Below, in pieces: positions 13,240-57,604 of a stretch of 64,000 nt of DNA. Source of the DNA: Cinnamomum chago (taxonomy: Eukaryota > Streptophyta > Magnoliopsida > Laurales > Lauraceae); NCBI GenBank assembly GCA_038049695.1, contig CP142452.1, positions 49,744,501-49,808,500 on the forward strand, written 5' to 3'. Each line of letters begins with the position of its first letter. Position 1 is the first letter of the stretch. The notes beneath the pieces were generated by a model. It ran no database searches. It was not told the origin of the DNA and saw only the letters and a program-made list of their open reading frames with translations. The position numbers were made by a program, and so were the translations under genes.

Positions 13240-13241
13240 AT

Positions 13242-16260: not shown

Positions 16261-17040
16261 ATGATACTGAAACAATTAATAGACCATCATTAAAGAGGAA
16301 ATCACCTTCATCTGATCCGACGAAACTTTGGCACTTGAGGCTAGGTCATATAAACCTAAATAGGATTGACAGGCTAGTGAAAGATGGTATCTTGCCTTCA
16401 TTGGTTGTAGAACCAATGCCTGTTTGTGAGTCCTGTCTGGAAGGTAAAATGACCAAAAAGGCCCTTTTCATCAAAGGGCAATAGGGCCAAAGATTTGTTG
16501 GAATTAATGTATATTGATGTGTGTGGACCCATTAATGTCAGGGCCAGAGGAGGATATCTCTTCGCTGATTTTATGAGATACTTATCAGAAAATGGGATTT
16601 TATCCCAGGTGTCTGCTCCTGGTATGCCTCAACAGAATGGAGTAGCAGAAAGAAGGAACCAGACTCTTTTAGATATGATCAGGTCTATAGTGAGTTTCTC
16701 AGGATTACCTATATCCTTTTAGGGATACACCTTGGATACTGCGATGTACATACTAAACCTCGTACCATCTAAATCTATACCTAAGACTCCCCGGGAGTTG
16801 TGGTCCGGGCGAAAGCATAGTCTACAACATTTACACATTTGGGGTTGTCCGGCACATGTGCTAAAGGTTAAGACGGATCAGTTGGAAGCGAAGTCGAAAG
16901 TATGCACGTTTGTAGGATATCCTAAATGAACTAAAGGTTGGTTATTCTATAATCCCAAAGAGCAGAAAGTGATCGTGAGCACTAATGCGGTTTTTCTGGA
17001 GGAAGATTATATGATAGACCGGAAACCTTTAGAAAAAGGT
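16261..17040 (+). pseudogene. copia integrase, internally deleted
   Basis: In a new frame, the GAG-pre-integrase motif (LWHLRLGHINLNRIDRLV, with CESCLEGK) lies at about 16327-16450. The catalytic core begins LMYIDVCGPINVRARGGYLF, then jumps directly to RYLSENGI...APGMPQQNGVAERRNQTLLDMIRS. The segment that carries the second catalytic Asp is therefore missing, a deletion of roughly 60-80 codons. The C-terminal part (AMYILNLVPSKS...PRELWSGRKHSL..LHIWGCPAHV) is recognisable but has stops at about 16720 and 16927. It cannot encode an active integrase. Confidence 0.85.
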
Positions 17041-17421
17041 TATCTTGGAAGAAATTCAAGAGCAAACAATTCCAAATCCTAGTATGACCGAACCTAAGGA
17101 AGAAGCGCCCTTACCTAACCCAGTAATTACACCAGTGCCTTGTTATAGTGGGATCATAATCAGGCCCTCTGACGGGTTCTCGTTCTTGGGAGAGTCTTAC
17201 GAGGCAGTCCCGGAAGAACCGGAACAAGATCCCTGTAACTATGATGAAGCAATTTATGACATAGATTCGGGACATTAGTAAGATACTATGAAAGTTGAGA
17301 TGGAGTCTATGTACTCTAATCAGGTCTGGATACTTATGGACTTGCCTGCCAATATCTAATTTATTTGGTGCAAGTGAGTCTACAAGAGAAAGAGAGGACC
17401 AGATGGAAGAGTTGAGACCTT

Positions 17422-20370
17422 TGTAAGACCCCGACCCGAGTGAACCCGATTAGTGCTAATTAAGTTGCGTGTTAGTGCTAAGCTTGATTAGTGTTTTTGA
17501 TCTAGTTGGGTTTGGAATAACCTTGTTTCTAGTTTTGGGCTTTTTAGAGTGATTGGTAGCTTGTGGGGCCCTTTGGGGGTTTCCCTTTTCGGCTTTGCGT
17601 TTTCTTGCGAGATTTTCCCGATTGGTTGTGAATTGTGTTTTTGGCCCGTTGCATTCATCTTGTGGATTCTTACAACTTTCATGTTGATCCCGTGTCCATT
17701 CGAGGCCCCGAAACCAGATTTTCATAGCCCGGAGGGCAAAACAATCATTGCACACCAAATCTGTACCCAAAACTTGATATTCTCGTAAACCGCGAAACAT
17801 ACACTTTTTGGAAACTAGATATTTCGACGAACATTTCTTCCTTCTTCGTCGAATTCATCCGTGGACCCGAGAGAGATGATTTCAGTCCATTTAGCTTCTT
17901 AAGTTGTGGGACCCAAACCTCTCAATGGTTAACAAGAGGAACCCTTCCCTTCTTCCTCCATTTTCATGTTCCAGCACACTTGAGTCTAAGGTTTTGCTAG
18001 CAAGCTTCTCTTCTTCTTCTTGCTTCTTCATCTCTAATCCTCACCAATATCGCACCAAACTCAAAATGGAGATTGCCAATCTCTTCCCCATCTCACAAGC
18101 TTCATCTTGATACCATTTTTGGAGGAACCCATCAATCTTGAGATCTTCCTTGAACTAGTTCTTCTCATTTGAAGGTCATCCAAGTAAGTGATCCCTCTCA
18201 TCTTCTAGACTTTTAATCTTCTAGCCTTAGGGAAGCTACATTTGCATTATTGGAAGTTCTTTCAATTTCATTCTTGGTGTAACCCATTTTAGGGTTTTAT
18301 TTGGGGATTTTGCCTTGTAGCTTGGGCCATTTCCTTGGAGGACTTGATAGAGCTTAATATCATTAATTGAAGACTTGAGGCAAGTGAATGTTTGGATGTT
18401 TTTAAGTTTGAAATGGTTTGGAGATGCATTTATGGTTTTCATGCTTTCATTGATTGTTTTCATTGATTTTTCCATGGTTGAAATAAATGATCTTTACACA
18501 TCTTGATAGCCTCATTTAATGTCTTGGAATCATGTGTTTAAGTCTCCTTGTTCATAGTTATTTGTGGTTGTTGAGGTGTTGGAAGGAAAAGAAACAAGAA
18601 GGAGAAAAAAATCAAGTTCCCGGGCATGCTTCACGCCCAGTGCCGATCGATCGGACCTACAGACAGATCGATCGGTCTGTCTTTTAGCTGTAAGCCTTTT
18701 TGGGCCGATCGATCGGACCCTGTGTACGCCCAGTGGGTTTTGAAATTTATTTTTTTTGTGGACTTTGGCTACCCTCCTTGGACTCACTTGACCATATGTG
18801 AGAGTGTCTTGAGCCGATGCTCTTCACGGTTGGTCCGGGATGCATCAAAGTTCAATCGATTCAATCTTGAACGGGATGGAACGACACGATATCCTCTTCA
18901 TACCTAAATGCAAAGTCTATTTCCTTGGGTATCGCGAATTCTATTCCTTTCGGTGACTGAGTGGGTTGCTCGATGGTTCCGGGTTGACATCCTACTTAGG
19001 GTGGACCGTTTATAGTCTTGTTTTCCTATCATAATATCTAGTTATAACCATAAGCTCATATTAAGTTTTAAAAATAGTAAAAGTGCATAAGGAGCCCGGA
19101 ATGTCTTCAAACTCAAGGAGTACCAAGTCATATCTATGTTCGACATACGGGACCCCTATTCACTCAAATAGATCTTAAAATCATTATCTTTCCCGAATTG
19201 GTATAATTCATCATATTTCTCTGTTTCCAAGATTTACATGTCATGAGTTGTTTTCCCGAAAGCATGATAGTAGCATTGACTTGTCCCGAAGAGTATTGCC
19301 CGATATGAAATGAAAGTTATACATTGAATATTCTTGCTCGTTCATTGTTTTACTTGTACTTGTTTTACTTGCATATGTATCGATGTGTTATTTAACCTAT
19401 GTGTCGGCATCACTAAGCTTGGATACCTTGTCGGTTTGATCCACCGACTTGGAGATCCCTCTCCCGTCCCGCCAGCTGCAGTTTGGATCCCGATACCCGG
19501 TCATTACCGTGGTCCCGTCCCGATACCCGGTTCGCTACCGTGGTCCTGTTCCCGTATAATTATATTGTATATATGTATACGTTGTTTCTCCTCACCTTGT
19601 GTGACTGAGATCAACGTCCCGTGATACTGTTGTCACTTTAGTGACAGAGGACTTAGCTTTATGTGATTGCCACCTTGTTATTCCCGATTCCTTGGTTACC
19701 TCATATGTTTAATCTTGTTTACTTGTTTTATAGCAAATGATTTACCTGCTTTATGAGAGTTCTTGCTTAAACAGATTTATATGCTTTTCAAGAGACTTCC
19801 TCTATATTATTGTTGTTGTATCTTGTCATTCTCTTGCCAGACCGTCGTGTCTGATCCTTTGCTTTGGTACTCAGGTCCCGTTGCCGGTTTCCTTGAGGAG
19901 GAGCCGGAGGAGGCGGTAGGTGAGCTGCAGCCTTTAGTTGAGTGGCGTGCTGACGATGTCATGTAGACATCGGGTTGCCAAGAGGCGTAACATTTTGGGG
20001 AGAACTTATTAACCATTCTTTTGGGTTATTCTTTTGTAGTATTGGCCTTTGTTGGCCTCTAATTTTGGGGAATGTAACTAAATGATATTTTGTATAACTT
20101 TAACAATTTGTGGGAAACTTGCTATAGATCATTGCTCATTCTGATCCAGTTTTGATATTTAATAATTAATGTTTGCATGATTAGAGATAGTCTACTATTT
20201 GATTTGCTACACGCTTCCGCACTAAAAAGAAATGTTCATGCAAGGTTGTGATATCCTCACCGCGGACACCTGTGGGAAATTAAAATAAAAAATGTATATG
20301 TTGTTGGTTCATGACACATTAGTGTCCCGATCCCGGATTAGTCCTGCGGGCCCGGTCCGGGGTCGCGACA
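17422..20370 (+). mobile_element. Solo chromovirus LTR inside copia pol
   Basis: 2949 bp from tgtaagaccccgacccgag to ggtccggggtcgcgaca, with target duplication ACCTT at 17417-17421 and 20371-20375. Skipping the LTR and one ACCTT joins the copia reading frame exactly (RVETF to KVRLVAKGYTQ), which proves the insertion. Its interior carries a ccgatcgatcgg palindrome cluster (18635-18735) in place of the gcggttagccgc cluster of the related LTRs. Confidence 0.93.
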
Positions 20371-20375
20371 ACCTT

Positions 20376-21646
20376 TAAGGTCAGGCTTGTTGCGAAAGGA
20401 TATACTCAGAAAGAAGATATCGATTATGAGGAAACCTTCTTGCCGGTAGCCATGCTCAAGTCCATCCGGATACTCTTATCCATTGCGGCTCATCTCGATT
20501 ACGAGATTAGGCAAATGGATGTCAAGATGGTGTTTCTGAGCAGCCATCTTGACGAAGACATCTATATGATGCAGCCAGACGGTTTTATAGCTAAACAACC
20601 AAGAGCAAAGAGTTTGCAACATGCAGATGTCTATTTATGGACTGAAGCAGGCATCCCGAACCTAGAACATTCGTTTTGACTAAGCAATCAAGTCAGTTGA
20701 TTTTGTCAAAATCCGAATGAGTCATGAGTGTACATGAAAAGTAAAGGAGGCAGGGTAATTTTTCTAGTCGATGACATCCTTCTCCTAGAGAGTGGTATAT
20801 GGATGTTGTCAACAGTAAAAGGTTTAGTTGGCTAAGACTTTTGATATGAAGGACTTGGGAGAAGCCAGTCGCATCCTAGGGATCAAACTCCATTGAGACC
20901 GGATAAATAGGATGATAGGCTTATCCCAATATGCGTACATAGATAAGGTACTGGTATGGTTTGCTATGCAAGACTCCAAGAAGGGTATTACACCTTTCAG
21001 GCATGGAGTGCACCTTTCCAAGGATCAGTGTCCCAAGACACCTGAAGAAAAGGAGCAGATGAGGTCGATACCATACGCTTCGGGTGTTGGTAGCCTCATG
21101 TATGCTATGCTATTTACTATACCGGACATCTGTCACAGTCTAACCCAGGTCCTAACCATTGGACTGCTGTAAGATGTGTTCTCAAATCCTTGAGAAGGAC
21201 TAGAGATTACATGTTGTTTTATGGGAATAATGAGTTGATTCCAGTCGGTTACACATATTCTGACTTCATGTCAGATAAGGATTCTAAGATATTTACTTCT
21301 GGGTATGTGTTTATGCTATAGCTGCTTGAGAAGCAGCCAAAGAAGCAAGTTGGCTCAATAGATTTCTTATGGAACTTGGAGTGGTGCTTTTGGCATGGCA
21401 ACCGCTCACAGTTTACTGTGATAACAGCAGGGCAGTCGATAAGTCCAAAGAACGCAGGAGCCAAAAGCATGTACAGAGGTTAAAACAAATGGGCAGAGAG
21501 GTGATACTGTTATCACCTAGATAGACTCTGCAGACAATCTGGGAGATCCCTTTACTAAGCCTTTGACTACCAAAGTCTTTGGGCAGTAAGTAGATGGGAT
21601 CTGCATGAGATGCAAACCTGACTGGGATTGAGCCCAAGTGGGAGAT
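20376..21646 (+). pseudogene. copia reverse transcriptase and RNase H
   Basis: RT resumes at 20376 with KVRLVAKGYTQKEDIDYEETF, then IRQMDVKMVFLSSHLDEDIYMMQPDGF. The normal copia Asp-Val-Lys-Thr-Ala-Phe has become DVKMVF. The catalytic box reads LVDDILL near 20768, in a different frame after stops near 20680. RNase H remnants include a SGYVFML stretch and VYCDNSRAV near 21415. Several stops and frameshifts make it inactive. Confidence 0.8.
21634..21646 (+). other. copia polypurine tract
   Basis: CAAGTGGGAGAT directly abuts the 3' LTR start (tgttag at 21647), the standard plus-strand priming site of plant copia elements. Confidence 0.8.
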
Positions 21647-23410
21647 TGTTAGTTTTATGGTCCCAATACCAGTATATGATGTAATAAATTGATTAATTTA
21701 TTTATTTATCAATATATATTATTGCTTTCCTTTCATGAGATGAATGCTGTTTTATTACTTGTTTGCACATAACTAATACGAATGACATAATGGTTCATGA
21801 GATGAACCGGAGTCCACAAGTATACTAGATGTAATACATGTGTATGGATGAGATCTACATGCAGGAGACATGTATGGCAAATCTTATACTTAAATATCTT
21901 CACAACCAGTTATAAGATTGGGCATCTCATCTGACAAGGTTGTAGCACTTTGATCACTATGAGATAGTGTGATTTGTCTCGATAGTCGGAATGTAAGATT
22001 CTGGATCATGGTACTGGTACATTGGATGTATTGAAGGACCATGAGAAACGCCTTATATACACTGTCTTTACTTTAAGGTCTGCTCTCATAATTCCCTAGC
22101 AATGGGCTCATAATCCTGAGACATTAATGAACTCAAGCTTCTATCTATTCATTTGCTTTGAGCCACCAATGAGTGAGGCCAATTGTAGGTCAACACCTCG
22201 GTGATTTGGGTACATGGTAGTAGAGCTGTGGGAACATTCAATGGTCAAGATGGAATCTATCTTTAATATCCCCTTGTGCCAATTAATGGATTTATCATTG
22301 GTAAGTGCGCACCCATTCCAATTAAGAATTAATTGGATCGGTACCAAATGATCATTATAATTAATTGGGGCTCAAGGATAATAAGATATGGATCTAATTT
22401 GGTGGACAGTTCCAATTGATCCATGAATATAGATGGAGGGGCCTACTTGTGGTAATTGGGAAGTTTAGGGTCTTCAATGTAATATATTCCTAAGACTGGA
22501 GTTCAATTGCATTTATATGGTGGAGTTATTTGCAATTAGCTGTGGGCCCGGATTGCGCAAGAGATGTGGGGTCGCGTGTCCCAGTTGGAGCCTGCTTTCT
22601 AAGGAATCCCTAGTGGTCCCCACGCTAGCCCAAGATATTAGAAAGATACTAATTATAGTAGAACTCTAAAAGGAAATAGAAAGTTACTATTTCTATTTGA
22701 AGTGAGACTTCTAATAGTGGTAATAGTAAGTTACTAATTATTAATGGAAGTAGGACTTCTATTTTAATTAGTAAAAGATGAAGTTACTAATCATATTTGA
22801 AGTAAGACTTCTAATTGTGATTTAGTAATCAACTAATTATTATGGAAGTAAGACTTCTATTTCAATTAGTAAGAGGAGGTTGCTTAAGTGTTATAAAAGG
22901 AGAGAGAGGAGGCTTGGATGTCCCTTATGCTATTCCATCATTGGAATTCACGCCCAAGCCCTAGGTTTGTGCAAGTGTTGCACACCACTCTCTTCCTCTC
23001 TCTCTTCTAGTTTCTCTTCTAGTTCCCTTTAGGTTTTCTCTTGGAGATTCCACCATCTTCTTGAGAAAAGAGAATCTGATACGGGTCATAGCGTGGAAGA
23101 TCAAAGGGTATTGGAGATTCTGATTTGATTAGTGAAGGTGGTCATCATCAAAAAAAGAATTCAAATTCTCCATTAGAGCACAACTAAGCTCCAAAGGTGT
23201 AATCTACATCCTTGTATGTTGTGGATTTCGTGGTTGCATATTTACGTGTTGTTTTCTATCTTCTAGATAGGATATATTGATGTACATGGTTTATGAGTTT
23301 GAGGGAATGCATCCTGGATTGGGTTTGTTGCCTTCTAGATAGTTGATCCCTGTATCAAGTAGGTCAAATTTTTTTGAAACCTATCTGAATGGCCCACCTA
23401 TTTTCCAACA
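21647..23410 (+). repeat. copia 3' LTR
   Basis: 1764 bp, the same length as the 5' LTR and about 98 percent identical by eye. TATAAAAGG starts at 22892. It is followed by the target duplication GAATA (23411-23415), and then the old host element resumes. Confidence 0.93.
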
Positions 23411-24865: not shown

Positions 24866-26938
24866 TCAGTTCTCCTTCACGTAGAAAATAGTGGGTCTTC
24901 CAAGCTCTGTAATCTCCACTGTCCCTTCCAACATCTTGGCCACCTTCCCCATCGATGGCCGCATCTCTGGTCGGTCCTGCAGACACCACATTGCAGTCTT
25001 CACCATTCGGTCCACCATCGGAAAATGGACGCGATCATCATAATTGTCAAGGATATGCCAGTCTAGGATCTCCTCAACCTTCCTCTCTGTGTAAACCTTC
25101 TCGAACGCCCATCTAGGATAATACCATTCGTCACTGTCCATCGAGGATTGCTGGAAATTGGTGTTCCTAACTCCGCTCACAATCTCAAGCAGCACCATCC
25201 CAAAGCTGTAGACGTCCGCCTTCGCGGTGATGGGCTCCTCTGACTTCACCCATTCAAGGGCCATGTAGCCTCGTGTTCCTCTCATCCTTGACATGCTGAC
25301 CTTGTCCTTCTTATTGGCAAGCTTTGCTAACCCGAAATCGAAGACCTTGGGGCAGAAATCATCTTCTAAAAGAATGTTCTCAGGCTTGATATCACAATGG
25401 AGCACCCACTCCAAGCACTCCTCATGTAAATAGGCAATTGCCCTTGCAACGCCAACAGAAATTCTATACCGGATGTTCCAGTCTAGCACCGGCCGATTAG
25501 CATTCTGTCGACGATGACCATTGAAACTCATCGAATTCTCCTCTTCTTCCTTCACATCACCTTCTTCTGATCTTGAATTGTTGGGCTGGAATAGGTATTT
25601 GTCAAGTGAGCCATTGGGGATGTACTCATATACAAGCATACGCTGGCCCTTCTCATCACAGAATCCCCACATCCGGACTAGATTAAGGTGGTGCATTCAT
25701 GCAATTATCGTCACCTCAGCCCAGAAATCTGCCTCCCCGCCGCCCACATTCTTCAGGCGCTTCACCGCTATAATCCGGTGGTCAGGCAACTCTCCCCGGT
25801 AGACGACCCCAAAACCGCCTTGGCCGACAACATTGGAGAAGTCCTTGGTGGCCACCTTTAACTCAGCATAAGAGAAGCGTTTCGGGCCGCCGGCCGGAAG
25901 GAATTCAAGCCCAAAAGTCCTTGCCATGTCTCTATACTTGGAGTACTTTCTAAGGAAGGCCCAGAAGGAGAGAACACCAATTATAAGTTCAATTGCAAAG
26001 AGAGAGCAGATGATGGCAAGGTTTCTCTTCTCTGCCTTTGACTCCTTGGGTGGTAGAGGGAGGTTGATTTTCACCGGGCAAACAGTCTCCAACATCGAAT
26101 TCATGCCAGTGAAGTTCGACTGGTCTTTCTCCTCCAGGTCAACACGCAGAAACATTGCCACTTCTGACCCCGGTGACCAGTAACCATAGAGCAGACGATC
26201 AATCTGGTGGACGCAGTACCTCTTCCCATCAAATTTCGCTGCAAATCCAAGGCATCGGGAATTATCAAGACACCACGATTGGCACTCTTTGAAATTGCGT
26301 GCTTTCGGATCGGTCTGATTCGCACCACCTGTAAAATTAACATAATCCAAGCGGAGGAATTTGCTTTCTTTTGGGTCTGTCTTCAATTCAATCTTCCGTT
26401 CGCAGGCGCCACCATTCGTAGTCTGGAACCCAGGTGGGCATATGCATCTAGTCGTGTTTGAGCCATTGCTCATACACACGAAATTCGGTCCACAGCTGCC
26501 ATGGATTTGGCAGAGCTCTTGAATTGCTTGCCAGACCATAACCCAAGAACCAGAACTCTGAAGACTGTAAACTCTCAGGTTACCATCAATATCCAGAGTC
26601 AATCTTCTGAGTCGAGTGTCGCCGACATCGGCCGATATGTGGGTGTTGCCATTGTTCTCGTTAATGACACCGTCCCTGGTTAGAATCTCCAATGTGTTAA
26701 CACTAGACCAGTACACATCTGTGGAATTGAAGATGAGAGAATTTCCCTGTGTGAACTCAAATCTCCCTTCAGCATAAGAACCTAAATCCTTCCTTGATTT
26801 CAAAACCAGGGCATTTCCATTTGAAGACATGTTCTGGGTGGGAAGAAAAGTGTCAGTTGGTGAGTTGAAACTCTCCCAATTGCCAAAAACAAGATTACCA
26901 TCTACTTTCAGAACAAGTCTCGAGCCATTTGTTGCTCC

Positions 26939-27694
26939 CTGCCAACAGAAACATTCTACTATAAGATGGTTCTTACGATGACAATGAGCTTGTATTTTTT
27001 TTTCTTAAGAAGTAAAATGATATATATTATGATCAGCTTGTATTTTTAATTTAACTTTATATTTTATTGTACCCTATTAACTAAATTAATTATTCTCAAT
27101 GAAGAATAACATAATACATTTATAAAGAAGCAATTGCTCTTTAGTTTGTGGAGAAGGGGAGATGGATGTGAAATCATGAAAAAAAGGAGTAAAATATATT
27201 AAAGTAGCGAGTAAAGGCCACTGTGTATTTGACCCAACAAAACTAATCTCCCAGCCACCCAGGGGTTAGTAAATCCACACCTTGTGCCAACAAAACTAAT
27301 CTCCCAAGCACCCAGGGGTTAGTAAATCCACACCTTGTGCCAACGAACCAACACCTAGATGGATAGAGGGAGTATAGATTAAAGGCACCTTTTGTAATAA
27401 AATTTACTACAGTAGAGGTTTTTGGCTTTAAAGGGGCATATAGAGGAGTATACGGTTAATGGTGTCAGTTATGAGTATTTTTCTCCGCCCTACATTTGTT
27501 ATTCAAATCATATTACATCACATCTCTATTTTTACTCCACTTATTTGTTTACCGCTATTTTCTCTGAACAAACATGGCAGCCTTAATTTCTAGTTGAAGT
27601 TAATATTTATTGCACTCTATAAAACACCCAAATTATTTTCTATAAAAATAAACATAGTGAATTCACAAAGACTTTAGCCCCTATATTTCTTTAC
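26939..27694 (-). other. Intron of the receptor kinase gene
   Basis: 756 nt with GT-AG borders. The boundaries are supported because the protein continues across them as a typical lectin domain (NLWQ joined to [17 protein letters not shown]). The position inside the lectin domain is unusual, since many genes of this class are intronless. It contains a tandem duplication at 27234-27340. Confidence 0.85.
27234..27340. repeat. Tandem duplication (53-54 bp x 2) in the intron
   Basis: Two adjacent copies begin ccaacaaaactaatctccca and end ccacaccttgtg. They differ only by one inserted base (cagcc versus caagc). This is a recent slippage or unequal-crossover duplication and a likely polymorphic marker. 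Confidence 0.9.
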
Positions 27695-42821: not shown

Positions 42822-45800
42822 TGTAAGACCCCGACCCGAGTGAACTCGATTAGTATTAACTAAGTTGTGTTTTAGTTCTAAGCATGTTTAGTAGATTTTG
42901 ATTAAGTTGGGCTTGGAATAGCTTTTGGAAATAGTTTTGGGGAATTTTGATTTGCTTAGTAATTAGTGGGGCCCTTTGGGGGTTCCTTCTTTATGACCTT
43001 GCATGCGCTTGAGGATTTATCAGAGATTTTTGCATTTATTGTTTTAATCTCATTTTAATTGTATTGTTAATCCCTACAACTTTCATATTGATCCCGTCCC
43101 CATCTGAGATCCCGAAACCCGATTCCCTAGCCTCGAGCGCAGAACAATCATTGTGCACTAAATCTGTACCCAAAACTTGATATTCCTGAAACCCGCGAAA
43201 CATATACTTTTTGGAAACTAGATATTTCGACCATCACTTTTCTCTTCTTCGTCGAATTCATTAGAAGCCCCGAAAGCCAAGATTTCAGCCCTTGAATGCA
43301 TTAAGTAGTGGGACTCATTCCCATTTGCTTATATAAGGAGAACCCATCTTCCTCATTTCCCTTTTTCCAGCACAAAAGGCAGTTTAGGGTTTCTTGTAGC
43401 ATTTATCTTCTTCTTCTTGCTCTCTCCATCTCAATCTCCTATTAATCTTGCACCAACATCAAAATGGAAGTCATCATTCTCTTCCTCATCTTGAAGGCTA
43501 TCTTTTGATACCATTTGTTGAGAAACCTATCAACTTTGAGACTTCCTTTGAGCTCACCTTGCCCATTTGGAGAACCTATAAGTAAGCAATCTTCTCCATC
43601 TTCTAGGTTTGTATTATTCTAGTCGTAGAGAAGCTTCATCTCCATTATTGTGAGTTCTATCTTCTTCATTCATTGTTTGACCCATTTTAGGGTTTGTTTT
43701 GGGGTTTTTGTTTGTGCCTGTAGGATTCTTAAGAGAGCTTTGTTTAATAGCTTGATTTCCTTGATTAGAAGACCCACGGCAAGTGGATGAGTTAATATTA
43801 TGAGCTTTCAATGGTTTTCATGAGGAATGTGGTTGACTTGTCGTTTTCATTCATATTTATTGGCTTGCATTGATTTTTGAAACAAATGCTTTGAATGAAC
43901 CTTGCTAAGTCATTTAATGTTTTGGAAACATATTGGTTATAATACTTGTTGTCTTTTGGATATGTCTTAAATGAATGTTTGTGATTTGGTTTCTCTTTCC
44001 TCTTGTGGTTGTTGTGGTTAAGAAGGAGGTGATGGGATGAACACATTTAGGGTTTTGGAGCAGTGTAGATAGATGTATTGGAGGAGATCTTAGCTCAGCT
44101 TTATTGCAGGGATTAAATGGAAGTGAGGAGAATGGTTTTGAGGAGGAAAAATGGCTCAAATCTGAACACAGTGGGTGTTTCCCGCACCTGGCTGACAGCC
44201 AGCGGTCACCTGTCGGCTAGCCGTCTAGTGACTGGCGGCTAACCGCCAGCTAGGCGAACAGTCGCGGTTACTTTTCCAGAGAGCAACATTTTCCTCCTGA
44301 AAACACAGTCAGCCTCACGATTAGCAAGCGGTTAACCGCCTAACCCATCGGCGGCTAACTGCCAGCCAACCGACCCATTCGGTTACTTTCCAGAGAGCAA
44401 CATTTTGAAAGTCCGGGGATCCAAACCCTAGAGGGGGGGTGAATAGGGTGAGCTTTAATTATGACCAATTTTAATCAATTTTAACTTCTTTAAATTAAAC
44501 TAGTCACAAGTGATGATTATCAAACAAAATGTGGAAGCTTAATAAAAAACAATCACCACAAAGCAAGCACCATCACACAAGGATTTATAGTGGTTCGGGC
44601 TCAATGCCTACATCCACTACCGGCTTGTGATCCAACACCCCACCGGATTTCCACTATTTATGCTTTTCAATAGGCTAAGCAATAACCTTTACAATGATGT
44701 TTTTCAAGGCTTAACATCAACCTATACATTATGCTTTTCTTAGGCTAAGCAATAACCTCTTCAACCAATGGTTGGTTATCTCTCTAAGTAGTGTCTAAAT
44801 TACACTTGATGGAGATACAATTTAGCTCATTATAATGCCTCTTAATTAGGCGGATATGGAAGTGAAAAACTAATTCATACACACACACTATGAATGCAAA
44901 GATGAATGCTCAATGTGTATGTATGAAGTCCTCAATCATTTTTAAAATGAAAGCTCATAAATGTATGCCTAAGGCTTTTGAAAGTTTTAGCTCATAAAAA
45001 TATTTATGATTGAGGAAAGAATGCAAGTCACATGTTAAAAATAACTTGTAAAAGATATACATTTGTATCCTAAACAAGTTGTGAAATTCTAAGTACAAAA
45101 CATGTGATGCATAGGGATGTCAATCAAATTAACAATGTAGCTCAAAACATAAAAATAGATTTGATTGATATTAGGGGACAAATCATATGTGAATATGATA
45201 TACCTATCAAAGAAAGGCAAGTTGTGAAACTTTAAAACAAAGATACATATGATTTGTGAAGTTGTTAAATCCAAAACATAAGATTGATTTGAAAGTGATT
45301 TTCTTATGATGAAAAACAACAACCAAAGATTCAACCAAGTATAGGAATCATGTTACATATAATTTCAAAGATGTTTTCATTAACATGATTTACTTAGATA
45401 TACCAATTTAAGTACTACTTGGATTGAATCAATGGTGATGCATCCAAAACAATAAATCAATTCAAAACATAAACATGTTAAGGACACAACAAAACATAGT
45501 TTATCATGCTAGAAAACATTTACCAATAATAAAGCAAGGCATGACAATATATGGTTAAGGAAAGTAAAGCTTACTTAGAGATTTAACTTCATTAATCAAA
45601 GCTTTAGCTTTCCTAATGACCCCTTTCATCCCTTAACTGATTCCCCTTTGATTTGCCTCAAAACCTCTCAAGGAAGGCCTAAAAATCCTTAACTTTTGGC
45701 AAAGGAATGAACTAGTATTTATAGCCAAAATAGCCCAACGGCTAGTCCCCGGTCAACCTGGACCCTTGCCCGGTCAACCTGGCCTTCACAATGGTCATAA

Positions 45801-48021
45801 AACTGACCGTTTGACAGGAGCCCCAACGGCTCTTTCCCGGTCGACCTGGTCCCCTGTTGGGCCGGTCGACCTGGCCTTCCCCGGTCGACCTGGGACCAAA
45901 ATTCCCTAATTTTGTATTTTTCAAATTATTTTCTTGAGGGAACTTTTGGGCCATTAAACCAAGCTTGGAATCATGATTTAAATCAAACTAAGAGGCATAA
46001 ATTCATGAAACACAAAAAGCCTAAAATGATTTGAAAGATTTAAAACATAGGCTAGCTTGATTTGGTAAAACCTCATTTCAAATGAAAATGCATCCAAGTT
46101 TAAAAACAAAATATGCATAAATCAATATCTTTTACAAATCTTAAAAACAATGCATGTATAAATCAAGATTTCAAGTTTTTCTAAAACAATGCATGTGTGA
46201 AAATTCAAATGATGCTAGAGTGATAATGCATCCATCAAATTGCAATACAAAATTCCTAACACATTTTCCTCCTGAAAGCACGGTCAGCCTCACGGTTAGC
46301 AAGCGGCTAACCGCCGAACCCATCGGCGACTAACCGCCAGCCAACCGAACCATTTGGGTTACATTTCCAGTAACCTGTCTTTCTGTCAGGCCAACCGCGG
46401 TCAGCCAGCGGCTAACCGCCTAACCCAACGGCGACTAACTGCCATCTGACCGCTAGGTAACCGAAATCACCCAGACAACCATCCCGGAAAGTTCGCTCGA
46501 GCAATGAGCTTTGTCGGTCAAAGGCAATGTTTGGGACAATGATGAACTATTTAAACGTTTTGGGACTATTCATTGATAACCTTCTATGTCAGGGAGATTT
46601 ACCAAGCAATGTATGAGGCCATTTGACAAAGAAACCATATCACGAAGATGTCATTCGAAGTTTTGAAAATTCAAAGTGTATAAGGAGCCCGAGATGTCCC
46701 CAAACTCACAGAGTACCAAATTAATATTAGATCGACATACGGGATCCCTATTTACTTCAAATAAATCTTGAACCCGATACTTTACCCAAAATTTTAATTG
46801 TTTATTGTACTTTATCGATCCCGAGATTTATACTACATGCCTTGTTTTCCCAAAAGCATTGAAGTACACTTACAATGGTTACTTGTCTTGAAGTGCACTA
46901 CACCACATGAAACGACAGTGCGTCGTTGAGCACCCCCGTCCTGCCCGTTTGTTTATTTGTACTTGATTTACTTGCACATGTCTCGATTTGTTATTTGACC
47001 TATTAGTCGGCACCACTAAGCTTGGATAACCCTGTTGGTCTGATCCACCGACTTGGAGATCCCCCTCTTGTCCCGCCAGCTGCAGTTTGGATCCCGCTAC
47101 CCGGTTATTACCGTGGTCTTGTCCCGATGCCGCAGATTGCTACTATGGTTCCCGATGCCCGGCTCGCTACCGTGGTCATGTATAGTATATGTATATGTAT
47201 TTATAAGATCCACTGTTTCTCCTCACCTCGAGTGACTGAGATCAGTGCCTAGTAATTGCTCTGTCACTTTAGTGATAGAGGACTTAGCTTCGTATGGTTG
47301 TCATCTTGCTTGTTTCCCGTTTCCTTGGTTACCTGTACATGTTTCACAATGCCTACTTGTATTTGAATAAATGTTTTATCTCGTTTATAGAAATTGTTAT
47401 CTAAACAGGTTTAAATGCTTTTGAAGGTAAATTCATTTATTATCATATTGTCATTGTATTTAACTCATTTGCCAAACCGTCGTGTTTGACCCACTCTTTG
47501 GTACTCAGGTCTTGTTGTTGGTTATCCCGAGGAGGAGCACGAGGAGCACGAGGAGGTGGTCGGAGAACCGCAGCAGTTAGTCGAGTGGCATGCTGATGAT
47601 GTCATTTCGACATTGGATTGCTAGAGAGAGATAATATTTTGGGAAAACTTTTAACCATTCTTTTGGGGATTGGTATTTTGTTTATATTGGCCTTTGTTGG
47701 CCTTTAGTTTTGGGAAATGTAATTAAATGATCTTTGTATAAACTTTAATTTACCTTTGGGTAACATGCTAATGATCATTGCTCATTCTGATACAGTATTA
47801 TACTTGTAATATTATCTTTATGACTAGAGATGGATTGAGTATTTGATTTGCTACACGCTTCCGCACTTAATAGAAATGTTCATATATGATTGTGATAATT
47901 GTCACTGCGAACACCTGTGGGAAATTAAATAAATGTATGGCATTAAACTGATGTGGTACATTATCATTATTAGTGTCCCGATCCCGGATTGGTCCCGCGG
48001 GCCCGGTCCGGGGTCGCGACA
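42822..48021 (+). repeat. gypsy 3' LTR (interrupted)
   Basis: Net length is about 3.34 kb once the foreign solo LTR (44406-46261) and one CATTT are removed. Candidate TATA (tatataagg) near 43330. The palindrome cluster is cut in two by the insertion (44160-44405 and 46262-46480). Minisatellite block at 47050-47170. Confidence 0.92.
44406..46261 (-). mobile_element. Solo LTR of the SIRE-like non-coding element family
   Basis: Minus-strand TG...CA unit with target duplication CATTT at 44401-44405 and 46262-46266. It is the reverse complement of a diverged relative of the LTRs at 50177-52378 and 55403-57604: same start tgttaggaatttt, same end ctagggtttggatccccgg. Its TATAAATA is at 45716-45723 on the minus strand, with GGTCGACC palindromes immediately upstream (45735-45900). 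Divergence from the young copy is considerable, so it serves as a comparative copy for the structures described there. Confidence 0.9.
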
Positions 48022-50176: not shown

Positions 50177-52378
50177 TGTTAGGAATTTTCTAGATTGCAA
50201 TTTGATGGACGCATTATCATTCAAGCATCATTTGATTTACACACATGCATTGTTTTAGATAAACTTGAAATCTTGATTTATTCATGCATTACTTTTAAGA
50301 GTAGTAAAAGTTTTGATTTATGCATGATTTGTTTTTAAATCTTGGATGCATTTGTTTTAGAAAAGAGTTTTAGAAAATCAAGCTAGCCTATGAGTTTTAA
50401 ATCTTTCAAAATGTTTTAGGCTTTTTATGTTCCATGTTTTAAAACCCTTAGAATGATTTAAAACATGTTTTAAAGCTTGATTTTATGGCCCAAATAATTC
50501 CACAAAGAAAAACTTTGTTTTTGCAAAAATTGGATTTTGGGGCCACTGCAGTGTTTCCGGTTGACCGGCGCAGAGGTCCCGGTCGACCGGGAACACTGCA
50601 AGGCAAAAATTTGGCCTGGCGCCCCAACGGTCAGAAATCTGACCGTTGTGTGTTCCCGGTCGACCGAGGCCTGTTTGCCGGTCGACCGAGGACTAGCCGT
50701 TGGCAACTTTTTGCTATAAATATGAGTTCTTTCCCTTGCCAAAAGTTAGGAATTTTAAGCCCCTCCTTGAGAGGTATTGAGGCATATCAAAAGGGAAAAG
50801 AACCAAGGGATGAAGGGGATGATTAGGAAAGCTAAAGCTTGGATTAATGAAGTTAAACCACCAAGTAGGCTCTTCCTTCCTTAATCATATGTTTTCATGC
50901 TTTGTTTTATTTTTGGTAAATCATTTCTAGCATGTTAAACTATGTTTGTGTTGTGTCCTTAACATGTTTTATGTTTTGAGTTGATTTATTGTTTTGGATA
51001 CAACATCATATGATTCAATCCAAGTAGCACTTAACTTTGGTAAATCTAAGTAGATCATGTTAATGGAAAAATCTTTGAAATCATATGTAACATGATCCAT
51101 ATACTTGGTTGAATCTTTGGTTGTTGTTTTCCATCATAAGAACATCTCTTTCAAAACTAACTTATGTTTTGGATTCAACTTCTTTACAAATCATATGTTT
51201 TCATGTTTTGTTTTATCTTTGATAAATCTTTTGTAGCATGTTAATCTATGATTTGTTGTATCCTTAGCATGTCTTATATTTTGAATAGATCTATTGTTTT
51301 GGATACATCACCATTGATTCAATACAAGTAGTACTTAACTTTGGTAAATCTAAGTAGATCATGTTAATGAAATATGTAACATGATTCATATACTTTGTTG
51401 AATCATTGGTTGTTGTTTTTCCATCATAAGAAAATCTCTCTCATATGTATCTTATGTTTTGGATCCAACATCATTACAAATCATATGTGTATTATTGTTT
51501 TAAAGTTTCACAACTTGCCTTTCTTTGATTGGTAAATCATTTTCAAGTTGTCCTTATAATTACATATGATTTGTCCCCTAATTTCAATCAAATCTATTTT
51601 TATGTTTTGAGCTTCATTGATGATTTGATTGACATCCCTATGCATCACATGTTTAGAGCTAATCCATTTCATACAACTTGTGTAACTTTGATATCATTAA
51701 CAAGTTGTTACTTTTAACATGTGATTGCATTACATCCTCAATCATAAATGTTTTATGAGCTAAAACTTTCAAAAGCCTTAGGCATACATTTATGAGCTTT
51801 CATTTTCTAAATGATTGAGGACCACACACACACACTTCATATACTTTCATCTTTGCATTCATAGTGTGAGTGTGTAGTTGTTATTCACTTCCATATCCGC
51901 CTATTTAAGAGGCATTGTAATGAGCTAAATAGAATCTCCATCAAGTGTATGTTAGACACTAATTTAGAGAGATAACCAACCTTGTGGTTGAAGAGGTTAT
52001 TGCTTAGCCTATAAAAGCATAGTGCATAGGTTGATGTTAAGCCTTGAAAAACATCAATGTAAGGTTATTGCTTAGCCTTGGAAAGCATATTGTAAAGGTT
52101 ATTGCTTAGCCTATTGAAAAGCATAAATAGTGGAAATCCGGTGGGGTGTTGGTTCACAAGCCGGTAGTGGATGTAGGCATTGAGGCCGAACCACTATAAA
52201 TCCTTGTGTGATGGTGATTGCTTTGTAGTGATTCTTTTGTTAGCTTCCGCATCTTGTATGATAAATCATCACATGTGACTAGTTTGTTTTAAAGAAGTTA
52301 AAATTGATTAAAATTGGTCATAATTGGAGCTCACCCTATTCACCCCCCCTCTAGGGTTCGGATCCCCATGGACTTACA
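50177..52378 (+). repeat. 5' LTR of the non-coding element
   Basis: TG...CA, 2202 bp. TATAAATA at 50715-50722, preceded at 50555-50705 by four GGTCGACC-type palindromes (ggttgaccgg, ggtcgaccggg, ggtcgaccgag twice) and the perfect hairpin aacggtcaga/tctgaccgtt (about 50626-50647). The AT-rich R/U5 part holds perfect stems: 51476-51488 with 51562-51574 (13 bp), 51584-51594 with 51622-51632 (11 bp), 51736-51745 with 51811-51820 (10 bp). Confidence 0.92.
50715..50722 (+). promoter_or_regulatory. LTR TATA box
   Basis: TATAAATA, conserved in the 3' LTR (55941-55948) and in the solo relative (45716-45723, minus). In all three the GGTCGACC palindrome cluster lies within about 150 bp upstream, the position of promoter-proximal elements. 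Confidence 0.65.
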
Positions 52379-52380
52379 AG

Positions 52381-52392
52381 TGGTATCAGAGC
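52381..52392 (+). other. Primer binding site of the non-coding element
   Basis: TGGTATCAGAGC two bases after the 5' LTR; complementary to initiator tRNA-Met. Intact, consistent with recent mobility. Confidence 0.88.
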
Positions 52393-52527
52393 GGGTTACT
52401 CCATTTTAGGGCTTAACAACCCGGAGTTGATCCTTGCTAGATTTGAACCCTAGTGTTGTGTTTATTGCATATTTTTTTTAAAAGATTTCCACTATGTTTG
52501 AAAATGATTTTTTCCCTAGCCTCATTG

Positions 52528-54822
52528 CACCACTCTAAGACTTTTCCAAGTTATATCTTCTAGAGTTGGTGAGTCCTGAAAGTGTTCTCTCATGGACAAC
52601 CTTTTCAAGACCTTAGGTGAATTTTTCAAAGGTAGACTATTTGAGTAACCTTTAGGCCTTGATACCCCTAGACCAACCTTTTCTTTTTAGTTATATCTAT
52701 TTGTTGGTCTTGTTACATTTGCATTTTGTTTCTTTAAAGTCACATCTTTTAAAATGCAATGTTTCTTTGTGATCTTTTGATTTTGTCTTCATGATCTTTT
52801 AAAGTTATATCTCATGGTTTTCAAAATCCTTTGATTGCAATACTTTCATGATGGATTTGCATTTTGATCATATAGTTATATCTCTTGTAGTGCATATCTA
52901 TTCATGATCAATTGATTGTGATTACAAATGCTTTCATAGCTAGTTTTTCATGATCAATTGATATTGGAAAATCATTTGATGTTTGTCATAGTTAGATCCT
53001 TTTTGGAAATCAAATGATTTGAAGCAACCTTAGTTTTCCATTGATTTACAAGTTATATCTTTTGATATGGAAAATTTGTAAGTGTCTATTGTTTTTACAA
53101 ATTGAAAACTTTACAATAGTACACTTCTTGTTTTTCAAAATCACTTGCTCTTAATTCTATAAATGATTCTTTGTTGGAATTTCATACATTGAAGTGATTT
53201 GAAAAACTTTGGAAAATGTTCTAAGCTTTATTAGTTATATTTATAGAAGCATTTTCCTTGAATTTATTTCCTTGTGCCTAATTATGATTATATCATTTGG
53301 AAGGAAATATTTTTTTACAAACAATTTGCATCTTTGCTCATTTAGTTATATTTCTTTATGCAAATTGATTTTGATGTCTTACATTGCTTGGTTGGATATG
53401 GTTTCATTGATTTGCATTTTTGTGATTATCTTGGTATATATTCTCATTAATGCATTTTGATGATTGTTTATGTGCTTTATAGTAAAATCTTGTTTTTGAG
53501 CTTTTTAAGTACATATGTGATTTTATGTGCTAAGTTCATTTGGTATAGACCTCATATCCATTTTCCATTGCATTGTAAGCTTAGTACATTTGCTAAGAGT
53601 GGAGATGTTACATGATAGATTGATTCCTTTAACTTCATACCTTCTTGTGCTTAAATAGTTATATTCTTTTTGATGATTGGTATGAGTTAGATCTTGAGTG
53701 TTGATTAATCCTCTCTATGCAAATGTCAAAGTGTTCTTTGTATGGTTGTGTTATTTTTTACATTTGTAGAAACCATACAAGAACTCAAATCCATCCTCTA
53801 TGCCGTATAGTCATTTCTTTTAAATGGATGGTTATGATGTTGATTCATGTATACCTTCTTAATGTTGTCATTTTTATACATGTTTCAACTTCATAGTAGT
53901 GCTCTTGATCATATGAACCTCTTTGAAATCTAATCCTTGTATTTCATAGTTATATCTCTTGTTTGATGGATATCTTAGTGTTGAATTCATATGATCTAGA
54001 CACTTTGGAAATTGCATGCATTGCCTAGTAATAGTCTTTTGCATTGCAATTTACCTTGTTCATCACTATGCTCTATAGTTATATCTATATAAGTGATGAA
54101 TATACATTTATGATGCTTGATGGAATTTTGTCACATTCTTGCTCTTTATCATGTTATCAAATTCAATTGGATTCAATTGGTATAATGTTTGATTGATTTG
54201 ATTTCTTGTGAATGTGATAAATCTTGTGTGCATTGGATTGAACTTGATAAGTAATATGATTGTTCCATGTCACACACCATTAGCATCATAATGCTCATGT
54301 TGCCACCTCTTTTGCTCTTATAGGTATATCTCATGACCATCATGTTTATGTGTTCATAATATTGGTTGGTTATTAGTTGAGGTTGGCTTCATGCTTGAAT
54401 TTCATTTCACTCATCTTGCACTTTAATTAGTCATATTTATTGATTGAATGAAATGATTTTCAAAACCTTCATAGCATATGCTTTCCATTGTTAGATTATT
54501 TGATGCTATGTTTAGTAAACCCCATTGCATCATGGATAGCTCTAATTTGGATTCTTCCTAATAGGTATATTTTTACATCCATTTTAGAGTGATTGTGTTT
54601 AAATAGTCATATCCTTAAATCTCAATTGGTATTCTTTGTTGTTCCAATTGATATCCATGATTGCTTTTCCCATTGACCTAGCTCTCTTTTGGTAATTTGA
54701 TCATATGAGCCTTATAGTTATATGAATCTAATCCTTTTCTTGAAGTTGACCCTCAATTGGTTAAACCATCTTCTTCTTGCACCTAATAGTTAAATCTTTG
54801 TCAAAAGTTTGACAAAAGAAGA
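52528..54822 (+). other. Array of about 20 stem-loops with shared loop motif TAGTTATATCT
   Basis: This fills most of the internal domain. Successive units are an 8-16 bp inverted repeat enclosing a loop of about 20-45 nt (a few longer) that carries AGTTATATCT or a near variant, always on the plus strand. Motifs lie at 52549, 52689, 52739, 52803, 52874, 52990, 53051, 53233, 53344, 53657, 53948, 54077, 54322, 54429, 54563, 54605 and 54788. Arms differ from unit to unit. Examples: 52670-52677/52703-52710; 52969-52980/53009-53020 (perfect 12); 53211-53223/53244-53257; 53322-53331/53358-53367 (perfect 10); 53631-53641/53679-53688; 54059-54067/54092-54100 (perfect 9); 54540-54552/54577-54589. No ORF runs across it. 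Function unknown. Confidence 0.75.
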
Positions 54823-55021
54823 GAATGGATTGACGGGGAGTGTAAACCTTCATAAGAAGTATTAGTTTTGATCAAATTTACCCATGGATTGCCTTTGAGC
54901 CCTTAGAGACTACTACCTCACATGATAGCCTGTTATGTATTTCATTTTCGATTTCATTTGTTAACAGGTGCTTCTAAAGGTATTTTCCTTGTTTCATGTG
55001 TGTAGGTACCTTTGCAATTTC

Positions 55022-55402
55022 ATGGCAAAGGGGGAGAAATTATGCAAGTTCTCAAAAGGGTAAAGAGAATGTCCAAGCTTCCTAAGGGGAGGTTTTTGTA
55101 TGATCTTCTACAAGGGGAGAGAATACATACCTTGCCAAAGGGAGAAAGAGGCATGGTCAAAGGGGGAGAGCAAATAGAAGAAAGAAAGCTTGGAGTTAAA
55201 GAATATGCTTGGATAAAGAAAGAAAGAAGAAAGAAAGATTGAAGAATGATCAAGCACCAAGCATCATGAAGAATGAAGAAAAGAGCCCAAGCTAAAAAGC
55301 ATCCAAGAAGATTTCAAGCCTTGTCCAGCTGAGGGGGAGCTGAAGACTAAGTGTGTATTTTCAGTGGTGAGTGTGTTGCCATCAAATTGCAAAGGGGGAG
55401 AT
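55022..55402 (+). other. Multiple polypurine tracts before the 3' LTR
   Basis: Seven purine runs of the form caaagggggag: near 55026, 55084, 55111, 55135, 55157, 55331 and finally 55391-55402, which abuts the LTR. Repeated upstream tracts are a habit of SIRE/Maximus-type copia elements. The last is the functional candidate. Confidence 0.75.
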
Positions 55403-57604
55403 TGTTAGGAATTTTCTAGATTGCAATTTGATGGATGCATTATCATTCAAGCATCATTTGATTTACACACATGCATTGTTTTAGATAAACTTGAAATCTT
55501 GATTTATTCATGCATTACTTTTAAGAGTAGTAAAAGTTTTGATTTATGCATGATTTGTTTTTAAATCTTGGATGCATTTGTTTTAGAAAAGAGTTTTAGA
55601 AAATCAAGCTAGCCTATGAGTTTTAAATCTTTCAAAATGTTTTAGGCTTTTTATGTTCCATGTTTTAAAACCCTTAGAATGATTTAAAACATGTTTTAAA
55701 GCTTGATTTTATGGCCCAAATAATTCCACAAAGAAAAACTTTGTTTTTGCAAAAATTGGATTTTGGGGCCACTGCAGTGTCGCCGGTTGACCGGCGCAGA
55801 GGTCCCGGTCGACCGGGAACACTGCAAGGCAAAAATTTGGCCTGGCGCCCCAACGGTCAGAAATCTGACCGTTGTGTGTTCCCGGTCGACCGAGGCCTGT
55901 TTGCCGGTCGACCGAGGACTAGCCGTTGGCAACTTTTTGCTATAAATATGAGTTCTTTCCCTTGCCAAAAGTTAGGAATTTTAAGCCCCTCCTTGAGAGG
56001 TATTGAGGCATATCAAAAGGGAAAAGAACCAAGGGATGAAGGGGATGATTAGGAAAGCTAAAGCTTGGATTAATGAAGTTAAACCACCAAGTAGGCTCTT
56101 CCTTCCTTAATCATATGTTTTCATGCTTTGTTTTATTTTTGGTAAATCATTTCTAGCATGTTAAACTATGTTTGTGTTGTGTCCTTAACATGTTTTATGT
56201 TTTGAGTTGATTTATTGTTTTGGATACAACATCATATGATTCAATCCAAGTAGCACTTAACTTTGGTAAATCTAAGTAGATCATGTTAATGGAAAAATCT
56301 TTGAAATCATATGTAACATGATCCATATACTTGGTTGAATCTTTGGTTGTTGTTTTCCATCATAAGAACATCTCTTTCAAAACTAACTTATGTTTTGGAT
56401 TCAACTTCTTTACAAATCATATGTTTTCATGTTTTGTTTTATCTTTGATAAATCTTTTGTAGCATGTTAATCTATGATTTGTTGTATCCTTAGCATGTCT
56501 TATATTTTGAATAGATCTATTGTTTTGGATACATCACCATTGATTCAATACAAGTAGTACTTAACTTTGGTAAATCTAAGTAGATCATGTTAATGAAATA
56601 TGTAACATGATTCATATACTTTGTTGAATCATTGGTTGTTGTTTTTCCATCATAAGAAAATCTCTCTCATATGTATCTTATGTTTTGGATCCAACATCAT
56701 TACAAATCATATGTGTATTATTGTTTTAAAGTTTCACAACTTGCCTTTCTTTGATTGGTAAATCATTTTCAAGTTGTCCTTATAATTACATATGATTTGT
56801 CCCCTAATTTCAATCAAATCTATTTTTATGTTTTGAGCTTCATTGATGATTTGATTGACATCCCTATGCATCACATGTTTAGAGCTAATCCATTTCATAC
56901 AACTTGTGTAACTTTGATATCATTAACAAGTTGTTACTTTTAACATGTGATTGCATTACATCCTCAATCATAAATGTTTTATGAGCTAAAACTTTCAAAA
57001 GCCTTAGGCATACATTTATGAGCTTTCATTTTCTAAATGATTGAGGACCACACACACACACTTCATATACTTTCATCTTTGCATTCATAGTGTGAGTGTG
57101 TAGTTGTTATTCACTTCCATATCCGCCTATTTAAGAGGCATTGTAATGAGCTAAATAGAATCTCCATCAAGTGTATGTTAGACACTAATTTAGAGAGATA
57201 ACCAACCTTGTGGTTGAAGAGGTTATTGCTTAGCCTATAAAAGCATAGTGCATAGGTTGATGTTAAGCCTTGAAAAACATCAATGTAAGGTTATTGCTTA
57301 GCCTTGGAAAGCATATTGTAAAGGTTATTGCTTAGCCTATTGAAAAGCATAAATAGTGGAAATCCGGTGGGGTGTTGGTTCACAAGCCGGTAGTGGATGT
57401 AGGCATTGAGGCCGAACCACTATAAATCCTTGTGTGATGGTGATTGCTTTGTGGTGATTCTTTTGTTAGCTTCCGCATCTTGTATGATAAATCATCACAT
57501 GTGACTAGTTTGTTTTAAAGAAGTTAAAATTGATTAAAATTGGTCATAATTGGAGCTCACCCTATTCACCCCCCCTCTAGGGTTCGGATCCCCATGGACT
57601 TACA
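55403..57604 (+). repeat. 3' LTR of the non-coding element
   Basis: 2202 bp, the same length as the 5' LTR. Differences seen by eye: one near position 38 of the LTR (gacgc/gatgc), two in the palindrome cluster (tttcc/tcgcc) and one near the end (gtagtg/gtggtg). Confidence 0.92.

Follow-up and report, generated by a model that had tools for sequence, protein, structure and literature searches.

A stem-loop array with a common loop word in a non-coding Sirevirus-type retrotransposon of Cinnamomum chago, and its possible use as a packaging label

A non-coding Sirevirus-type element

The window analysed here is a 64,000-nt stretch of the Cinnamomum chago genome (contig CP142452.1, positions 49,744,501 to 49,808,500, forward strand), and its subject is a long terminal repeat (LTR) retrotransposon at 50177–57604, whose interior contains an array of stem-loops and no protein gene. 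The element is a young, non-coding LTR retrotransposon of Sirevirus type. Its two LTRs show 4 differences, a GCTTG 5-bp duplication stands on each flank, and this young insertion is of a type with many copies in the genome.

The Sirevirus hallmarks given by Bousios et al. are the junction, the polypurine tracts (PPTs), an inverted repeat, LTR palindromes and a C-rich integrase signal (PMC2829016). We see all of these in the window element. Its CA/AGTGG junction fits the CA/A[T or G]TGG pattern and is joined to the primer-binding site (PBS) TATCAGAGC; there are four exact copies of AGGGGGAG, the terminal one joined to AT/TG and the others upstream. Direct reading places ATCAAATTGCAA before and TTGCAATTTGAT after the terminal PPT as its flanking inverted repeat, and finds both the CGG-CCG palindromes CGGTCGACCG in the LTR and the C-rich signal CACCCCCCCTCTAGGG near the LTR end. 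Unlike the Sireviruses described there, the window element lacks gag-pol, with no open reading frame (ORF) of at least 150 amino acids in 52379–55402, so that we take it to be derived from a Sirevirus and not autonomous; the main text of PMC2829016 uses neither 'stem-loop' nor 'hairpin'. In its paired LTRs, long interior and want of a coding domain, the element also agrees with a LARD. A second LTR type is likewise accompanied by the array, and no ORF of 100 amino acids occurs in the single piece of it that was read.

An array of stem-loops with a common loop word

A sequence-only reading of this DNA had pointed to the word AGTTATATCT, recurring on the plus strand only, and the counts bear this out: 52376–55402 has 7 exact copies on the plus strand, 12 at up to one mismatch and 21 at up to two, where 300 dinucleotide shuffles average 0.007, 0.33 and 3.9. 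The minus strand has 0, 0 and 8, and these 8 are the same sites as on the plus strand because AGTTATATCT is nearly palindromic. When refined to AGKNANAT, the word is found 21 times on the plus strand and 3 times on the minus strand, compared to a shuffle mean of 1.5 (maximum 6 in 500 shuffles). A control copia element of the window, non-Sirevirus and with its own gag-type ORF, is not enriched in the word, as judged from its LTR and two other stretches (0, 0 and 4 on the plus strand; 2, 2 and 3 on the minus strand).

Perfect inverted repeats of at least 8 bp are also in excess, at 23 against 4.4 ± 2.1 in 60 shuffles, and a strand-neutral stem finder gives 26 stems in 52500–54850, compared to a mean of 6.2 in 12 shuffles. 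Loops in the array are mostly near 26 nt. When 42 overlapping 2-kb bins across the window are compared, stems with loops of 18–32 nt peak in 52501–54500 (19 of 22 stems), the next bins having 12, 10 and 10. The word and the stems coincide, as the enclosing-stem score of the 21 motif sites is 25.0 against 21.0 ± 1.0 for circular shifts (0 of 2290 as high), and 13 of the 21 AGKNANAT cores lie wholly within stem loops, where the shift null averages 4.1 and none of 2311 shifts reaches 13. Dinucleotide shuffles thus yield fewer motif-centred hairpins than the array does. The claim that nearly every copy of the word is enclosed by an inverted repeat of its own stands for those 13 cores, and fails for the 8 that fall outside at this threshold. 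RNAfold in 120-nt windows gives the array a modest mean z of −1.18 on the plus and −1.10 on the minus strand, which is not specific to it: the LTR gives −1.70/−1.68 and window positions 1–3000 give −1.32/−1.23 (plus/minus). Conventional windowed folding would have overlooked the array.

The units have a pyrimidine-rich lead and the core in common, as had been noticed, and nothing more. Apart from the core, the arms show no relationship from one unit to another (likeness 0.302 and 0.321; expected 0.304), so arms do differ freely, but between units only, and judged by these arms the units are not recent duplicates. As the arms are alike only at chance level, the word must be common through selection or very old descent. 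Rfam, at E values up to 1, gave three matches, all under their gathering scores (MIR395 at 53130–53207 scored 21.8 against 56). A pattern search of genome_contigs gave 7 matches, all of them prokaryote records by title, and one pattern match in viral_contigs was judged unrelated, as that contig has neither Sirevirus features nor the motif.

Family copies in the genome

Copies were sought in the 1.06-Gb source genome using an exact 16-mer of unit 54077, which gave 120 hits (3 for the reversed control). Of 40 loci fetched, 34 are family copies and 6 were dropped for want of homology. Three of the 34 group with the window element at 91–93% identity, and 31 form a second subfamily at approximately 78–86% over matched stretches, a 31:3 split that is not a genome-wide ratio because the exact 16-mer picked the copies. 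In all 31, approximately 53374–53692 is unmatched, and often nothing is matched from 53076 on. The junction pattern, at up to 2 mismatches, occurs at 1429 sites in the same genome (control 0), and all 30 loci cut from such sites run on into the array, several coming from the same tandem clusters and 5 having an internal deletion. Window-type copies are thus abundant.

The window element and its 34 copies together provide 35 family sequences, which have on average 21.0 stems compared to 8.5 when shuffled, and 14.6 compared to 2.1 when loops of 18–32 nt are required. The word at up to 1 mismatch averages 6.9 copies on the plus strand and is absent from the minus strand in 35 of 35. Of the 778 stem-loops in these sequences, 379 present the core in a loop no longer than 45 nt; the median length of the loop is 26 nt, and 11 nt separate the core from the 5′ arm. 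Cores are predicted to be the more exposed (unpaired fraction 0.184 vs 0.094; 13 sequences).

Family copies also form head-to-tail tandem clusters with a period of approximately 5.2–6.0 kb (e.g. C2:101327-137176 and C3:57511304-57545273), as expected for chains of LTR-internal-LTR-internal. In one cluster a derivative without 53037–54805, with the first hairpins and the PPT tail retained, has been amplified (L067-L071).

Constraint on stems and on six loop letters

Two sequence sets were used: a first tree of 34 sequences, for which one of the 34 copies was dropped as a duplicate, and another set, of 20 window-type sequences covering 52376–53900, 16 of which are not in the first, with the deletion copies L067-L071 and near-identical copies left out. 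The poorly aligned 53061–53715 was left out of the compensation, branch-event and rate tests.

In the first tree, stems change at 0.50, spacers at 0.96 and loops outside the motif at 1.73 changes/site; in the 20 window-type sequences, stems and spacers are at 0.54 and 0.98. The picture of conserved loops on freely varying stems is therefore wrong between copies, where stems change at about half the spacer rate and loops are fastest except for six core letters. The loop profile in the first tree reads A, G, T, free site, A, free site, A. In the 20-sequence set, core positions 0, 1, 2, 4, 6 and 7 change at 0.12–0.25 changes/site and the two free positions at 1.62, and the fixed letters change less often than other loop sites (0.19 vs 1.18 changes/site, p 4e-5); the wider first set agrees (0.82 vs 1.69, p 2e-4). 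Constraint on the loop sits in these fixed letters, not in the 10-mer overall.

Given that arm changes are rare, compensation in the arms is above chance. In stems taken from the window, double changes from one Watson-Crick (WC) pair to another number 5 against 0.8 expected from 300 simulations, single changes that restore a WC pair number 78 against 25.5, and changes from WC to mismatch number 74 against 119. Stems taken from the copies L034 and L029 behave likewise, with 4 double changes vs 0.3 and 5 vs 0.8. The paired fraction exceeds an unconditional null (0.856 vs 0.78; 0 of 200), and 243 of 492 two-change cells are still WC, compared to 12–40% in slid controls. Clean exchanges are seen at five pairs (Table 1), each probably a single event inherited by many copies. 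RNAalifold, applied to three stretches of 17 sequences, recovers the same hairpins independently; of its 82 pairs, 60 are identical in all 17 sequences and 4 have changed on both sides with pairing kept. Of the proposed selection on structure and loop word, then, the pair restoration above a phylogenetic null and the slow core letters hold up, and the freely varying stems do not.

Such figures could in principle arise with no function at all. Inverted repeats can arise and be homogenised by template switching of reverse transcriptase, which here would make or correct the arms and leave the word as a relic; double changes of either kind do exceed their null. We consider this highly improbable, as the spacer rate is roughly twice that of the stems, loops vary little in length or in where the core lies, and the letters between the fixed ones are hypervariable.

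At non-stem sites of the array in the copies, the per-site frequency of C to T on the plus strand is roughly double that of G to A (20.7 vs 11.3 and 16.3 vs 8.9 per 1000), an asymmetry perhaps owing to a mutation bias when the element replicates.

A companion reading frame in sister elements

Junctions followed by a non-G letter number 54, of which 20 were sampled. The interior is array-only in 14 of these, L106 and L107 have rearranged variants of that interior, and L091, L092, L099 and L100 start differently. A 3.5-kb reading at the same place as L100, termed L108, runs through an intact ORF of 518 amino acids, then the array, then PPTs, stopping short of the 3′ LTR. Its PBS junction is identical to that of the window element (29/29). 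By eye, a long stretch of the protein resembles a coiled coil, and the protein also has a CCHC knuckle CNFCGIEGHFMFEC and a C-terminal part rich in lysine; its ORF is the single long one on the plus strand in the 3.5 kb, with no match to a capsid and no ORF of pol size. The Pfam knuckle score is below cut-off for L108 (16.4 vs 20.8) and above it for the homologue P0002 (24.4), and the CCHC residues are invariant in 5 of 5 aligned sequences.

Of the 34 family copies, 31 match this protein immediately upstream of the array, and these make up the whole second subfamily. The three window-type copies have no such match, nor is there an ORF of at least 150 amino acids at that place in the window. 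Long open frames persist in 26 of the 31 copies, with ratios of nonsynonymous to synonymous change (dN/dS) of 0.32–0.57 relative to L108 and, between pairs of copies, a median of 0.52, showing that the ORF is under purifying selection; L023, L032, L033, L045 and L054, with short or shifted frames, were left out of this calculation, and the near-identical L026/L027 and L037/L038 were kept. The full-length frame is seen in L108 only, because the fetched pieces of the copies lose their 5′ ends. Two public homologues are 69% and 60% identical, on contigs of 4.9 and 3.9 kb. A protein search of viral_contigs found no relative, a search of solved structures gave one weak match (E 0.033), and the knuckle aligns weakly with the gag-type ORF of the window's other copia element (E 0.045).

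The hairpins thus stand directly behind a putative RNA-binding protein gene in the sister elements, which suggests a label-and-reader system that the window element may have borrowed. The same arrangement, seen behind the L108 ORF and with the ORF match just upstream in 31 of 34 copies, would suit a regulatory 3′ untranslated region controlling translation, stability or location of the protein's mRNA; the protein may even repress itself, with packaging a side effect or absent. As the array is retained in ORF-less copies, which have no such mRNA, we find this rather unlikely. A host RNA-binding protein could instead read the loops, for export, stability or evasion of silencing. Sites of PUF proteins have the form UGUANAUA, which the spacing of AGUNANAU resembles, and such a factor might use a short word of this kind, with its fixed letters, free positions and place in an exposed loop. 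The first and last letters of the word differ from the PUF site, and it is a zinc-knuckle protein that adjoins the array in 31 of 34 copies; a host reader seems unlikely to us on these grounds.

Features of the element and its surroundings

The coordinates of the element and of its stem-loops are collected in Table 1. Unit 54077 was omitted from the core test on the copies because the same unit had served to find them.

Table 1 Parts of the element at 50177–57604 and the stem-loops of its array
Feature	Position	Strand	Basis
5′ LTR, 2202 bp	50177..52378	+	self-BLAST, 99.8% to 55403-57604
Palindromic CGGTCGACCG boxes in 5′ LTR	near 50558-50688	+	direct reading
TATAAATA in 5′ LTR	~50716	+	direct reading
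Sirevirus-type junction CA/AGTGG, PBS TATCAGAGC	52379..52392	+	compared with PMC2829016
Array, ~25 stem-loops with 21 AGKNANAT cores	52500..54850	+	stem finder, motif count
Stem-loop, core 52549	52528..52571	+	stem finder, core scan
Stem-loop, core 52689; A-U/U-A exchange 52670/52710	52670..52710	+	stem finder, copies, RNAalifold
Stem-loop, core 52738; A-U, G.U, G-C series 52715/52762 (G.U intermediate)	52715..52762	+	stem finder, copies, RNAalifold
Stem-loop, core 52803; weak in window, stronger in copies	52767..52840	+	enclosing-stem score, copies
Stem-loop, core 52874; A-U/U-A exchange 52851/52902	52847..52906	+	stem finder, copies
Stem-loop without core	52907..52962	+	stem finder
Stem-loop, core 52990, perfect 12-bp stem	52969..53020	+	inverted repeats, stem finder
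Stem-loop, core 53051	53034..53074	+	inverted repeats
Stem-loop without core; C-G/U-A exchange 53144/53194	53130..53207	+	stem finder, copies
Stem-loop, core 53233; other arms there in ORF-bearing L029, L034	53211..53257	+	stem finder, copies
Stem-loop, degenerate core	53265..53309	+	stem finder
Stem-loop, core 53344	53319..53371	+	stem finder, core scan
Stem-loop, core 53657	53630..53689	+	stem finder, core scan
Stem-loop without core	53733..53784	+	stem finder, RNAalifold
Stem-loop without core, hypervariable 21-nt loop	53833..53895	+	stem finder, RNAalifold
Stem-loop, long loop, core 53948	53898..54004	+	enclosing-stem score
Stem-loop, degenerate core	54007..54055	+	stem finder
Stem-loop, core 54077	54059..54100	+	stem finder, core scan
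Stem-loop without core	54156..54202	+	stem finder
Stem-loop, core 54250	54225..54276	+	core scan
Stem-loop, core 54429	54395..54463	+	stem finder, RNAalifold
Stem-loop, no core in window, core in several other copies	54470..54510	+	inverted repeats, RNAalifold
Stem-loop, core 54563	54540..54589	+	stem finder, core scan
Stem-loop without core; G-C/A-U exchange 54629/54644	54619..54654	+	stem finder, copies
Stem-loop, core 54788	54760..54834	+	stem finder, core scan
Four exact AGGGGGAG PPTs	55029, 55161, 55332, 55393 (55029..55400)	+	last one abuts AT/TG of 3′ LTR
3′ LTR, 2202 bp	55403..57604	+	self-BLAST, pair of 50177-52378

Inverted repeats are frequent in the LTR as well (24 perfect ones of at least 8 bp). 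The part of the LTR 3′ of its TATA box, 50880–51870, is hairpin-rich with loops of approximately 25 nt, and contains GGTAAATC 4 times on the plus strand and 0 times on the minus strand. These hairpins were considered as part of the array system and rejected, as LTR stems and loops change at 1.21 and 1.28 changes/site (20 sequences), with no overall constraint on stems. The LTR word GGTANATC is constrained at 1 of 4 sites (51531), one set of its per-site rates being offset by one base. The GC-rich palindromic LTR boxes at 50565–50681 and 55791–55907 match the MIR3704 model weakly (31.3 bits against a gathering score of 60). On the minus strand, at 44398–46263, lies an LTR that has no interior and belongs to a related family, at approximately 86% over aligned sites; comparing the LTR with this diverged solo LTR gave just 3 two-sided kept pairs in R-U5.

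Elsewhere in the window, a 12-kb copia element occupies 11476–23410; its LTRs are 98% identical, its gag-type ORF lies at 14980–16293, and its PPT is not of the Sirevirus kind. A receptor-kinase-like gene lies on the minus strand at 24866–27004, in two adjacent open stretches split by a stop; it has S-locus glycoprotein and PAN domains, then a kinase.

Discussion

Packaging of RNA is what the zinc knuckles of Gag proteins do. Elements without a protein of their own moreover retain the array. For both reasons we see packaging as its most likely use, and we rate at about an even chance the reading in which the array is a series of repeated binding sites for a Gag-like protein, used in packaging, with the window element an array-only parasite. 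The array would then be a multi-copy recognition region of the element RNA, in which some 25 stems each present a loop of about 26 nt, mostly with AGUNANAU. The reader would most likely be the coiled-coil, CCHC and lysine-rich protein encoded upstream of the sister arrays, or a related Gag of a full Sirevirus; the zinc-knuckle protein may dimerise. Many weak sites on each RNA would recruit many protein copies and so deliver the RNA to particles in which reverse transcriptase and integrase would be supplied by an autonomous relative. The window element, which has LTRs, PBS, PPTs and array and lacks a protein gene, would therefore use the protein in trans, as a parasite of its protein-bearing sister, which itself would depend on the autonomous element.

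Several observations weigh against this reading. On the side of the label, several array hairpins have no core, and the whole 10-mer does not change significantly more slowly than other loop sites (1.49 vs 1.73, p 0.18, with unit 54077 omitted). Raw compensated pairs (11) are not above an unconditional null (13.1), pair-breaking double changes also exceed their conditional null (4 vs 0.7), and a stronger constraint on stems along internal than along terminal branches appears in one set (stem/spacer ratio 0.21 vs 0.37, p 0.026) and not in the other (0.62 vs 0.63). On the side of the reader, the knuckle passes the Pfam cut-off in 1 of 3 homologues, no Pfam capsid domain is found in the L108-type protein at E values up to 1, and a search with RVT_2, in which 150 of 16771 candidates were scored, did not identify the autonomous partner. 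The uneven sampling of the two subfamilies, noted above, counts on the same side.

Two further points concern the acting strand. Antisense cores are exposed as well (0.205 vs 0.135), and among single pair changes G.U is not significantly favoured over A.C (50 vs 32, p 0.18 combined; p 0.02–0.41 in subsets), so that RNA as the acting strand, which we infer, is not proven. Alike folding scores on the two strands would also fit a structure working in single-stranded cDNA or DNA, through pausing, strand transfer or a cruciform. We hold this to be improbable, with a core so clearly one-stranded (21 vs 3) and a word fixed in the loop.

The packaging reading can be compared with several known systems. 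LARD elements resemble the window element in their long LTRs and long protein-less interior, and are reported to have a well-conserved RNA secondary structure and assumed to be mobilised in trans (PMC7215508); the window element differs from them in its array of approximately 25 hairpins, its common loop word and its position-specific constraint. Our literature searches, limited to open-licence papers, turned up no such hairpin array in retrotransposons. Transposition is known for TR-GAG elements, which have one ORF, for Gag (PMC8704663, PMC6022998). The sisters described here are alike in having one Gag-like ORF, with no pol seen in the one read to the PPTs. The sister ORF differs in being coiled-coil-like, with a CCHC and a basic tail, no capsid match and the hairpin array behind it, and the window element differs in having no ORF. 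The genomes of satellite tobacco necrosis virus (STNV) and MS2 have multiple packaging signals with differing stems and a common loop motif (A.X.X.A in STNV), each a site for coat protein (PMC3662417). The array likewise consists of multiple stem-loops with a short common loop motif; those are virus genomes with proven coat-protein contacts, whereas the array, with its putative protein sites, is a separate non-coding block. The packaging leader of human immunodeficiency virus 1 (HIV-1) is a folded leader, unlike an array of independent hairpins with one word. The HIV-1 nucleocapsid protein has about two dozen sites on that one RNA (PMC7395439).

A fuller version of the packaging reading, to which we give somewhat less than an even chance, is a two-part self-recognition, in which one subfamily would make an adaptor of its own, the coiled-coil zinc-knuckle protein, and carry the AGUNANAU label, and a second, abundant one would keep the label alone and exploit that adaptor, amounting to a three-tier parasitism on an autonomous Sirevirus. 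How protein-less retrotransposons come to be chosen for packaging is an open problem, and the present finding offers a concrete, testable label (six fixed letters at some 20 sites) and, in the sister elements, a gene for a candidate reader. Elements that have this reader can be set against those that lack it, as a comparison provided by nature. If the packaging reading is true, it would extend the idea of dispersed packaging signals from RNA viruses to plant retrotransposons.

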